Shown one piece after another: positions 10,600 to 35,606 of a stretch of 46,617 bases of DNA. A program made the translations under genes and the position numbers. Position 1 is the first letter of the stretch. Every line of letters starts with the position of its first letter. The notes under the pieces are model-generated. The model had not been told where the DNA came from. It saw only the letters and a program-made list of their open reading frames with translations, and did not search any database. The stretch comes from a virus. Location of the stretch: positions 83,249 to 129,865 of IMG/VR virus record IMGVR_UViG_3300021600_000003; one strand, 5' to 3'.

Positions 10600-10848
10600 A
10601 TGATAGTACCTAAAGTTGGTGATTGGGTAAGATTACCTAGTATACGTCCAGCTAATTGGAATCCGTATGGTAAAATGGATCACTTTCTAGGAAAGATTGT
10701 AAAAGTTCTTGATATACGTTATTCAAGCTTTCTTTTTGAAGGTCAACTCGGATGGAATTTTAAATATAGAGAAATTGAAGAGAATCTTGGTCCAGATTAT
10801 GATCCTGATGAAACTCAAACAATTAAAAATCACTATACAATCTTTTAA
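10600..10848 (+). CDS. Small tailed protein (C-terminal NHYTIF), 82 aa
   Basis: The N-terminal part (VPKVGDWVRLPS onwards) looks like a small SH3-like beta barrel with several Trp and Tyr. The last nine residues, TIKNHYTIF, belong to a C-terminal tail shared by many small genes in this window (pattern N-x-Y-S/T-I/L-F at the very end). A flexible acidic linker (PDYDPDETQ) precedes the tail. The function is unknown; the tail suggests docking to a common partner. Confidence 0.75.
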   Translation: MIVPKVGDWVRLPSIRPANWNPYGKMDHFLGKIVKVLDIRYSSFLFEGQLGWNFKYREIEENLGPDYDPDETQTIKNHYTIF

Positions 10849-10850
10849 AA

Positions 10851-11066
10851 ATGGATTATGCAATTAACGCATCATCTATCAAATCAAAGACTTCGATAAA
10901 GTTAGTGTTAACACCTACTAATACTCTCGAGAGAGAGTTCTTTAATCAACTCTTTGCAAATGGTAGTGCTATAATCGAGGCAATTCCTAATACAGAGGAC
11001 ATTGTTATAACCCGTAAGGAGGAAAACGGTAAACCTTCCACTACTGTTAAAGTAGATGAAACATAA
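10851..11066 (+). CDS. Hypothetical protein, 71 aa
   Basis: This starts two bases after the previous stop, so it is coupled to it. It is a soluble protein with a beta-strand N-terminus (SIKLVLTPTNTLE) and a charged C-terminus, with no tail motif. It ends shortly before a terminator. Unrecognised. Confidence 0.65.
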   Translation: MDYAINASSIKSKTSIKLVLTPTNTLEREFFNQLFANGSAIIEAIPNTEDIVITRKEENGKPSTTVKVDET

Positions 11067-11150
11067 TTAAGTCACTCAAAATCAAATGTATGTTCAAAGA
11101 CGTATTTATTTTGAAGAAAACATAAAATAACCTCAATAACCCTTGAAAAT

Positions 11151-11182
11151 AAGAGAACCTTAGAAATGAGGTTCTCTTTTAA
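11151..11182 (+). terminator. Rho-independent terminator
   Basis: AAGAGAACCT pairs with AGGTTCTCTT around TAGAAATG, followed by TTTT. It separates the TROVE-side genes from the RNA array unit. Confidence 0.85.
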
Positions 11183-11212
11183 CATTTATTTAACATATTA
11201 GATAGAGATTTT

Positions 11213-11244
11213 TTGTTTATTTTTCATTTTTATCTCTATCTTTG
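11213..11244 (+). promoter_or_regulatory. Bacteroidetes-type promoter of the RNA array
   Basis: TTG (11213-11215) is followed after 21 bases by TATCTTTG (11237-11244), matching the -33 TTG and -7 TAnnTTTG boxes of Bacteroidetes housekeeping promoters. It lies between a terminator and the first array unit at 11281. Confidence 0.7.
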
Positions 11245-11280
11245 ATATCCAATCATACTTAATACTGTGGTTGGGTAAAA

Positions 11281-11599
11281 GGATACATACAGCAACTATT
11301 TAAGCAATACACTTGTAATGTAAAACAGCTAAAAACTGTATCCTGATAAGAAGTCAGACAGCAAATACAAAAACAATTCTACTTTAAACAGGAACGACTC
11401 GAGTTCGACTCTCGAGACCTTAACAGAGGTGGAGTGGTCTGGAATATCTGTGACTTCTGATAAGAATAGCAACAGCAACTACAACAATTCTACTTTTAAT
11501 GGAAAACAAACGCTATTCTGATAAGATTACCAACAGCAACTAACTAAATTGCTAACCATATACTCTAGCGAGAAAAAATGGTAATCTGATAAGGACGCC
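11281..11599 (+). ncRNA. Tandem array of RNA elements with 7-bp closing stems
   Basis: Four successive units each open and close with a perfect 7-bp stem of different sequence: GGATACA/TGTATCC (11281-11343), GAAGTCA/TGACTTC (11350-11457), GAATAGC/GCTATTC (11464-11518) and GATTACC/GGTAATC (11525-11586). Each is followed by exactly TGATAA, and each 5' strand by N-ACAGCAA. A fifth unit starts at 11593 (GGACGCC-TACAGCAA) but has no partner strand. Unit 2 is longer and holds a T-arm-like hairpin (TCGAG-TTCGACT-CTCGA). A promoter precedes and a terminator follows. Seven base pairs is the length of a tRNA acceptor stem, but D and anticodon arms are not visible. The function is unknown. Confidence 0.8.
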
Positions 11600-11633
11600 T
11601 ACAGCAATTAAAAATGAGTATTGTAAAAATGTT

Positions 11634-33371: not shown

Positions 33372-33384
33372 ACTTTGCCTGTTC

Positions 33385-33440
33385 TTAAGTGACTTCCCCC
33401 GTAAGGGAAGCCCTCGGGTTACAATATCGTAACCACTTAA
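33385..33440 (+). promoter_or_regulatory. Structured 5' leader before the SSB-like gene
   Basis: A 7-bp closing stem TTAAGTG/CACTTAA encloses CTTCCC/GGGAAG, a short CCC/GGG and GGTTAC/GTAACC, ending 11 bases before the ATG at 33452. It is more G+C-rich than its surroundings. It could be an autoregulatory binding site of the encoded protein; this is inference. Confidence 0.55.
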
Positions 33441-33451
33441 AAAACAATAAT

Positions 33452-34429
33452 ATGGCAGTAAAAGGAAGACAAAAAGAACAAAAAGAGTTTACAAACAAAC
33501 TATTTGTTGGCTTTACAGCAGTTAAAGTAATTGCAGTAAATCCTACCAGAGAAGAACTCAACAAGATTTTGGGAAAAGAAGACAGTCAAGAAGACAAAGC
33601 AATTACGTATTTAGGAAGTGACCAAGAAGGTAATGACCGTATGCGTATTTTATTTGTACTAAAGGATGACAAAAATGAGAAAATCTTCTTCCATTCATTT
33701 AATCTTACTAACAAAGTAAGAAAGAATAAGGAAGGGGACAAATGTCAGATTGTTAATTCCACTTGCTCTACTAGTTGGGCACCATTTATCAAAGCACTTG
33801 ATAAAAAAGGTAAAGCTATTCTAGATGAGAATGGTAAAGAAACGTATACTGAGAAAGTGAATGCTGAACTCATTCAAGATTGGTTTGCAAACTTTACTAA
33901 CAAGGAAAAGGAAGTTCTTGGTCCAAAGAAATGGAGAGAAGCCTTATCTGGTGAAGAAGAGTTAGTTACATTACTTAGAAGTTGGCTTGGAAGGCTAGAC
34001 TTTATGGATCCTGAAACTGAAGTATTTGTTGATACAGCTAAACTGTTCAAGGAAAACTTCAAAGAGTTAAGGGAGCTTATTAGTTTAGACGAATCAGGTA
34101 ACTTTACAGATGGTGGATTAGATACCCCATTTGTAGTACTATTAGGTGTAAGAACTGATGAAGATGATGCTACTAAAAAGTATCAACAAATATGGGGTAA
34201 AGCATTCTTACCTGCAGGATTCATGAAGTATATCAATAACGACATGAAGTTTCCTACAGACTATTCTAAGAAAATCTTTAAGAAATTCAAGGAAGAAGTT
34301 GAAGGTGATTATGGCTTTAATGGCTATACAGAGTTGGTACCTTTGATAGAGTATGATGAAGCTAAAGACATTGCTGGTAGTGCTACTACTGGTAAAGAAA
34401 TAGCTGCACCTACATCTGGAGATTACTAA
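33452..34429 (+). CDS. Putative SSB-like replication protein, 325 aa
   Basis: ATGGCAGTAAAAGGAAG at 33452 is preferred because upstream in-frame codons lie in the structured leader. The N-terminal phrases FTNKLFVGFTAVKVIAVNPT, then MRILFVLKDD and IFFHSFNLTN, resemble a protein family of Bacteroidetes phages that I believe is annotated as single-stranded-DNA-binding. Third positions are relatively G/C-rich, fitting high expression. The C-terminus (TSGDY) is not the acidic DDDIPF type, so the call is tentative. A terminator follows. Confidence 0.55.
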   Translation: MAVKGRQKEQKEFTNKLFVGFTAVKVIAVNPTREELNKILGKEDSQEDKAITYLGSDQEGNDRMRILFVLKDDKNEKIFFHSFNLTNKVRKNKEGDKCQIVNSTCSTSWAPFIKALDKKGKAILDENGKETYTEKVNAELIQDWFANFTNKEKEVLGPKKWREALSGEEELVTLLRSWLGRLDFMDPETEVFVDTAKLFKENFKELRELISLDESGNFTDGGLDTPFVVLLGVRTDEDDATKKYQQIWGKAFLPAGFMKYINNDMKFPTDYSKKIFKKFKEEVEGDYGFNGYTELVPLIEYDEAKDIAGSATTGKEIAAPTSGDY

Positions 34430-34448
34430 GGATTTTGTACGAAAAGTG

Positions 34449-34479
34449 AAGGAGGGCTCAGAAATGGGCTCTCCTTTTT
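34449..34479 (+). terminator. Rho-independent terminator
   Basis: AAGGAGGGCTC pairs with GGGCTCTCCTT (two wobble pairs) around AGAAAT, followed by TTTTTA. Confidence 0.8.
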
Positions 34480-34536
34480 ATTTAACTTAAAAATTTATAA
34501 TATGTGTTTTTATATATTATTATAAACCATGTTAAT

Positions 34537-35571
34537 ATGATAAAAGGAAGATTAAAAGTTAAACCTCTAGAGAAAGAAGATATACTACGGAGAATTACTC
34601 CGTATGATATTTACCGTCTATATCAGGGATCATTCAAACTGAATGATGTTTGTGTAAATTATCATAGAGGGGAGAAAAACCCTTCTCTTATTATAAGTAC
34701 TCGTCTGTCTAGTCAGCTTCGACATAAGGATTTTGGAGATAAAGACTGGAGTGGAGACTGTTTTAATTTTGTACAACAGATTCATAGATGTGACTTTGGT
34801 ACGGCTTTAAAGATTATCGATAGAGACTTCTGTCTAGGACTTACAAATGGAAAAGTAGTTAATAATAAACAAATCATTACTTGGGGACAACCTGAGGTTG
34901 AGGAAAAACGTCCTCCACTTTTTCAGATAATTTATTATTCTCATATGTCTAGACAAGCTTTAGATTATTGGAAGAAATTTGGAGTTACTGAAGCAGATTT
35001 AAGAAAAGAACATATATATCAGCCAGCAGAAATTTGGAGAAATAGGAAGAAGATACCTATGGGTAATTTAATGACATTTGCTTATCATTATCCTGAAATA
35101 GATAAATGGAAGATATATCGACCATTTGCTCCAAAGAGAACAGAGAGTACTCCTATCAATCAATGGAAGTGGGATAGTAATGTTCCCTTTGATTATATCG
35201 ATAATATGTCAGCCATCAAAGGTGACTGTACAGCTATGTTCCTTGCTAAGAGTAAGAAGGATAGATTAGTATTAATGAATGCGTTAGGTACTGATTGTAT
35301 TGCTGATGTTCAGGCAGAAGATGCAGGATGTCTTACATTTGAGAATTTGGAACAATTTAAGACAGTTGATAAAAGGTATATTATCTCTGATAATGATAAA
35401 AAGGGCAAAGAGTTCTCTTGGTGGTTAACAAAGGAGCACGGCTTTAAGCACGTAAATGTTCCAGATAAGTATCTTCTTGAGACTCCAAAGTGTACAGATT
35501 TTGCAGACTTATGCTATCATCATGGTATGGAAGCAGTTATTAGTTACTTTAAAACAAAACAGATTATATGA
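34537..35571 (+). CDS. DNA primase (DnaG/TOPRIM type), 344 aa
   Basis: The start at 34537 (MIKGRLKVKPL) avoids an in-frame codon within the promoter-like leader. The N-terminal region (CVNYHRGEKNPSLIIS and HKDFGDKDWSGDCFNFVQQ) has the layout of a CHC2 primase zinc domain, but only part of the Cys set is present. A TOPRIM-like region follows near residues 235-300 with a DNDKKGKEFS motif. It would make primers for the phage polymerase with the DnaB-like helicase. Its stop overlaps a 12-residue tail ORF. Confidence 0.8.
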   Translation: MIKGRLKVKPLEKEDILRRITPYDIYRLYQGSFKLNDVCVNYHRGEKNPSLIISTRLSSQLRHKDFGDKDWSGDCFNFVQQIHRCDFGTALKIIDRDFCLGLTNGKVVNNKQIITWGQPEVEEKRPPLFQIIYYSHMSRQALDYWKKFGVTEADLRKEHIYQPAEIWRNRKKIPMGNLMTFAYHYPEIDKWKIYRPFAPKRTESTPINQWKWDSNVPFDYIDNMSAIKGDCTAMFLAKSKKDRLVLMNALGTDCIADVQAEDAGCLTFENLEQFKTVDKRYIISDNDKKGKEFSWWLTKEHGFKHVNVPDKYLLETPKCTDFADLCYHHGMEAVISYFKTKQII

Positions 35572-35606
35572 CAACACAAATTATTAACGATTATAATATA
35601 TTTTAA
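35568..35606 (+). CDS. Micro-ORF, tail peptide only (MTTQIINDYNIF)
   Basis: Twelve codons start in an ATGA overlap with the primase stop and end directly before the ATG at 35607, with no intergenic base left. The sequence is a copy of the C-terminal tail seen on the small proteins (IINDYNIF), without any body. The perfect fit between two coupled genes argues that it is translated. Confidence 0.6.
   Translation: MTTQIINDYNIF

Follow-up and report, generated by a model that had tools for sequence, protein, structure and literature searches.

Several systems are known in which a short C-terminal peptide directs a protein to a partner. In encapsulin cargo loading, one C-terminal peptide is found on unrelated client proteins and is recognized by a co-encoded reader. 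The DDDIPF tip at the C-terminus of SSB is borne by one protein and read by many partners, and the ssrA tag is a C-terminal tag that is read by the small adaptor SspB. The sliding clamp motif, QL[SD]LF, is a short and often C-terminal peptide with a Leu/Ile-Phe end that brings unrelated clients to one hub, where the contacts are made by subsites for the conserved Gln and for the Leu-Phe pair (PMC3716654). The present analysis concerns a C-terminal peptide, hereafter the tail, that is shared by 13 genes in a 46,617 nucleotide stretch of phage DNA. This stretch, termed the window, corresponds to bases 83249-129865 of a 129,865 bp virus record (IMGVR_UViG_3300021600_000003; G000). From the comparisons given below, the tail is probably a docking peptide (a probability of roughly 0.6) that is read by the product of a co-inherited gene at 13604-14092, referred to as the hub. 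No description of such a tag and hub system turned up in the literature searched.

The tail shares features with two of the known peptides but differs from both. Like the SSB tip, it is a C-terminal peptide with a final Phe; however, many proteins bear it, and it has neither an acidic run nor a final Pro-Phe (Pro is at position -1 in 0 of the 41 tails from four records that were used for composition counts). As with encapsulin cargo, a single C-terminal peptide is present on unrelated proteins and a co-encoded reader is proposed, but the motif is a different one and no shell gene is shared. The only shared neighbor is the hub, a helical protein of 144-162 amino acids (aa) with no match in Pfam and no significant neighbor in a fold search against the PDB.

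Within the window, ten of the tails terminate open reading frames (ORFs) of 74-105 aa; one is on a gene whose frame is broken, and two are on mini-ORFs of 16 and 12 aa. The original prediction had listed 13 C-termini under a shorter pattern. All of them lie at or very near where it had put them; its pattern fails at one position in the gene at 12445, which ends LSYSIF, and the real consensus in this phage is longer, I-x-[ND]-x-Y-x-[IL]-F-COOH, with position -7 being invariant (Ile, once Val). The genes, the hub and a contrasting polymerase terminus are as follows.

10600-10848, + strand: tail gene, 82 aa, ending IKNHYTIF
12170-12442, + strand: tail gene, 90 aa, ending IINTYEIF
12445-12495, + strand: mini-ORF of 16 aa, scarcely longer than the tail (MKREHPPTINLSYSIF), with an operon spacing of 2 nt on either side
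12498-12757, + strand: frame-broken tail gene, its tail frame ending IINSYSIF (three-frame translation)
12759-13076, + strand: tail gene, 105 aa, ending IINNYSLF
13079-13309, + strand: tail gene, 76 aa, SH3-like, ending IINSYSLF (PHROG 11307, E 2e-8)
13311-13583, + strand: tail gene, 90 aa, coiled coil by profile matches, ending VNNNYSIV
13604-14092, + strand: candidate hub and tail receptor, 162 aa, mostly helical, PHROG 2574, with homologues in or beside tail arrays
14144-14437, + strand: tail gene, 97 aa, ending IKNNYSLY
15353-15577, + strand: tail gene, 74 aa, SH3-like, ending INNNYSIF
18980-18997, + strand: C-terminus of the DNA polymerase, QLSLF, a canonical clamp motif given for contrast and outside the tail set
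19009-19299, + strand: tail gene, 96 aa, adjoining the DNA polymerase gene, ending INNTYTIF
30218-30451, + strand: tail gene, 77 aa, ending IIDNYELI
30448-30696, + strand: tail gene, 82 aa, ending IKDNYSIF
35568-35606, + strand: mini-ORF of 12 aa (MTTQIINDYNIF), its start codon and the upstream stop codon overlapping as ATGA, its TAA directly followed by the next ATG

The tight packing of the mini-ORF at 35568-35606 is the packing style of real genes in this region. In the frame-broken gene, the tail frame is open and has no start codon, the break being close to a TA dinucleotide repeat (about 12515-12525); slippage at this repeat, a sequencing error and a programmed shift would look alike.

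The tail is far more frequent than expected by chance. The strict pattern [IV]x[ND]xY[STEN][IL][FY] followed by a stop codon occurs ten times on the + strand and zero times on the - strand, where order-3 Markov sequences give an expectation of 0.05 per strand. Among 76 ORFs picked in the window, eight end in Y-x-[IL]-[FY] (0.06 expected, p = 2e-15), and the same motif at internal positions remains at chance level (8 seen, 10 expected). In the remaining 83 kb of the record, this ending is present in 0 of 59 picked ORFs. The tail codons for Tyr (TAT/TAC), Ile (ATT/ATC/ATA) and Phe (TTT/TTC) vary synonymously, demonstrating that it is the peptide that is conserved. A DNA or RNA element at the gene ends is thereby ruled out as the cause, and Rfam was blank across the array.

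The core of the tail, Y-x-[IL]-[FY]-COOH, recurs on small-gene arrays of three further IMG/VR contigs, two of which were found through the tail pattern and one blind. Four tail-pattern scans of IMG/VR were filtered to retain loci with three or more tail ORFs, with the Tyr at -3 built into the filter. Two contigs among the matches listed passed, namely G001 (IMGVR_UViG_3300033067_001061, 28.8 kb) and G005 (IMGVR_UViG_3300028794_000011, 40.6 kb). In the combined scans of IMG/VR and GTDB contigs, the matches listed were mostly single chance endings of short ORFs, and only these two contigs had arrays among them. In G001, three tail genes in tandem (with the endings NNDYNIF, INNYSIF and NNNYSIF) lie just upstream of the DNA polymerase. 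G005 has 11 tail genes ending YSIF, YDIF or YFIF. The Asp of YDIF (L341:5430-6329, - strand) is encoded within TATGAC, which includes the ATG of the next gene; as this residue is dictated by shared coding, the core common to the arrays is Y-x-[IL]-[FY]-COOH.

The gene that accompanies these arrays is the hub. A comparison of ORFs from the four records that have both hub and tails, three of which are fragments, identified a single common family, that of 13604-14092, with a member within or next to every array. Three of the four records also share a nicotinamide phosphoribosyltransferase. The hub homologues of the other three records are 39-50% identical to the hub of the window, which itself lies inside its own array; the G001 homologue (43%) directly follows the tail genes, while that of G005 is within the array with tail genes on either side. 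Between G000 and G001, the hub is more conserved than the polymerase (43% and 30% identity, respectively). When IMG/VR was searched with three hubs alone, G001 and G005 were recovered along with a new contig, G006 (IMGVR_UViG_3300042564_006854, 71 kb), with a hub that is 50% identical to that of the window. This search had no view of the tails in G006, which were noticed afterwards: there are 14 tail genes, 11 flanking the hub on both sides and three others 43-49 kb off, with endings that include YQIY, YEIY, YKIF and YPIF. The G000 record has PHROG matches for portal and terminase as well as giant genes, and appears to be that of a crAss-like phage. G005 encodes a Crassvirales capsid protein and G006 has T4-type genes (UvsW N-terminal domain, family B polymerase and Band 7), and thus the module spans phages of unrelated type.

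The linkage is strict in the records found, also with respect to absence. The nearest relative by polymerase (G002, 146 kb, 66% identical) has neither the hub nor an excess of tail endings. The same is true of the whole records of 13 named Crassvirales (crAss001, crAss002, Cellulophaga phage phi14:2, cr1_1, cr6_1 and eight other cr_ phages) and of Maribacter phage Panino. No hub homologues were found in 393 Bacteroidales genomes. The window tail genes at 10600, 19009, 30218, 30448 and 35568, which lie 3-22 kb away from the hub, obey the same hub and tail pattern.

The tail is independent of the protein bodies that carry it. A set of 39 bodies separated into 29 clusters (phmmer E<0.01), none of which extends across two phages. 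The SH3-like proteins at 13079 and 15353 are paralogues (phmmer E 3.5e-26), and the coiled coil of 13311 is clearly distinct from the other bodies. A permissive comparison gave weak cross-phage similarity between bodies (E about 1e-3 in the set of 39), and some of them may be very old relatives. INPHARED contained no relatives of the tail proteins except for the SH3-like body, of which the Aeromonas phage phiA009 homologue stops where the tail would start; the tail is thus an addition to a finished fold. As judged from these alignments, the bodies evidently turn over while the tail and the hub persist. The idea of a docking tail in the original prediction had been made to depend on enrichment at the C-termini of related phages and on the genes not forming one homologous family with the tail in its core fold. 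It is strengthened on both counts: the tail recurs on other bodies in small-gene arrays of three other phages, is located beyond a completed fold, and is borne by genes of more than one family.

Hub proteins range from 144 to 162 aa in length and are helical. An AlphaFold2 model of the window hub was likewise helical, with a predicted local distance difference test (pLDDT) score of 81-94 at residues 51-120, and a fold search against BFVD matched only uncharacterized phage proteins. All three hubs tested matched the profile of PHROG 2574, a family of unknown function, over the C-terminal half only (best E 1.1e-7); the genome search for this family gave E values of 7e-5, 9e-6 and 3e-9. By profile, the C-terminal half of the hub is therefore a member of the family that includes gp148 of Bacillus phage vB_BcoS-136, CAM003 and relatives. 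The vB_BcoS-136 gene differs in having no tails beside it, and its protein differs in having no KTSG..GF segment. The invariant residues of the hub are densest at D40, K44-T45-S46-G47, G51-F52, K56 and E58. Because of this density and the absence of the segment from the tailless Bacillus homologue, D40 to E58 is a candidate site for tail binding.

If the tail does dock on the hub, many small and quickly replaced proteins would bear one docking peptide on a flexible C-terminal end, composed of Y-x-[IL]-[FY]-COOH and, in this phage, an upstream Ile and Asn. The one co-encoded helical protein would read this peptide and either collect the small proteins at a single place or present them to a single target. 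A new small protein could join by acquiring about eight C-terminal residues, which would allow the bodies to change while the tail and the hub stay. Docking would also account for the hub and tails being gained and lost together, for the tail being at the extreme end, and for distant tail genes that track the hub. Since the window array and the replication genes share a strand, a role in early or middle infection is likely. The odds are about even for the wider proposal of a plug-and-socket module, where unrelated small proteins, in a set open to new members, are joined to one hub by a C-terminal Y-x-[IL]-[FY] plug and form one multi-protein complex with it during infection in phages of unrelated type. 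To our knowledge, no other pool of unknown proteins is as large as that of the small early phage genes. Should the tail place dozens of these proteins in a single complex, one bait could suffice to find the target that they have in common, and further members would be recognizable from sequence alone. As a small docking system encoded in the genome, the hub and tail pair would also be usable as a tool.

Four points weigh against docking on the hub. The linkage could come from co-regulation or joint transfer instead of binding, and with four records of which three are fragments, a second common gene might lie beyond them. When the hub was joined to 14144 by reading through the stop codon and submitted to AlphaFold2, the hub was modeled; however, the tail had a pLDDT of about 30 with no usable placement. 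Lastly, partial hub homologues are present in Bacillus phage vB_BcoS-136, Clostridioides phage LIBA6276 and Lak-B1 with no tails nearby, and the hub apparently has some tail-free role elsewhere. In vB_BcoS-136 and LIBA6276, the hub homologue is downstream of a conserved gene of 336-354 aa with no Pfam match (L350:6771-8252 and L355:3807-5216), which is a possible lead to that role.

Of the other explanations, it is unlikely that the receptor of the tail is some other host protein that is conserved between hosts, such as RNA polymerase, the ribosome or a membrane insertase, with the hub and tails being joint cargo of an early operon. The presence of the same peptide in unrelated phage types that may share hosts (G005 with its Crassvirales capsid, G006 with its T4-type genes) would be expected from such a target. 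It does not predict, however, that tails are found when the hub alone is used as a query, or that hub and tails are absent together from G002.

A role as a C-terminal degron or stability tag is likewise doubtful. A protease of the host or phage, or its adaptor, possibly the hub acting in the manner of SspB, would set the turnover of short-lived early proteins. A hydrophobic C-terminus on many small proteins, encoded on the strand of the replication genes and in mini-ORFs that are hardly more than the tail, fits with this role, as does a single partner gene of adaptor size. As in the ssrA/SspB system, there would be a C-terminal tag and a small adaptor, for which the hub is the candidate. Unlike ssrA, the tails are genome-encoded on each gene and end in [IL][FY], not in Ala-Ala. 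Furthermore, no protease gene is common to the four records, and the hub has no match among known adaptor families.

The sliding clamp is quite unlikely to be the receptor. According to this explanation, the tail is a variant of QL[SD]LF for the host beta clamp or another part of the replisome that recruits small proteins to the fork, and the hub is a mere neighbor. The spacing of N-Y-[SD]-[IL]-F does resemble that of Q-L-[SD]-L-F, and the G000 and G001 arrays adjoin a DNA polymerase gene whose product has a real clamp motif. The final pair is also compatible, with [ILV] in 41 of 41 tails followed by [FYW] in 39 of 41. In contrast, position -4, the site of the clamp Gln, is N, S, T or D with Q in only 2 of 41 tails, and the Leu/Met at position 2 of the clamp motif is replaced by Tyr in 41 of 41, although this Tyr was part of the search filter. 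The Asp of G005 is due to overlap with the next start codon, so the S/D alternation is not a shared preference. The polymerases retain clamp motifs at their own C-termini, namely QLSLF in G000, QLELF in G001 and QLTLF in G002 (L007). With the clamp motif and the tail kept separate in one genome, different receptors are indicated. Clamp binding also leaves the linkage to the hub unexplained, the tails being co-inherited with a phage hub and not with a clamp gene. Thus, of the two kinds of receptor named in the original prediction, a sliding clamp or another hub, the evidence favors the latter, in the form of the 13604-14092 family.

It is most improbable that the small genes descend from a single old family, now diverged, with the tail as the closing segment of its core fold. 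Some bodies are paralogous and there is the weak cross-phage similarity. However, the proteins that bear the tail include SH3-like barrels and a coiled coil as well as the products of the 16 and 12 aa mini-ORFs; in phiA009, the homologue of the SH3-like body stops short of the tail; and the tail is constant even where the bodies are unalignable.

Other features were observed around the arrays. The DNA polymerase gene of the window is split (15828-16256 and 17339-18997, + strand) by an insert that carries a GIY-YIG endonuclease gene at 16527-17327; Rfam identified no intron in this region at its gathering score, and the polymerase relative in L007 (G002) is a single ORF of 683 aa. In G001, there is a ThiF/E1-like gene (L022:8027-8743, + strand), with possible ubiquitin-like conjugation genes around it. 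An RNA-binding protein (PHROG 850, Pfam DUF7788), which is presumably Ro60/TROVE-like, is encoded at 8854-10548 (+ strand). About 5 kb upstream of this gene is a Hatchet ribozyme at 3918-4102 (+ strand; Rfam RF02678; score 55.4 bits, gathering score 51). Genes related to nicotinamide adenine dinucleotide are present at 21256-28189 and 43695-44885 (+ strand), and encode Tad3 (a Thoeris inhibitor), a nucleotidyltransferase-NUDIX fusion, a nicotinamide phosphoribosyltransferase and a PARP-type ADP-ribosyltransferase.

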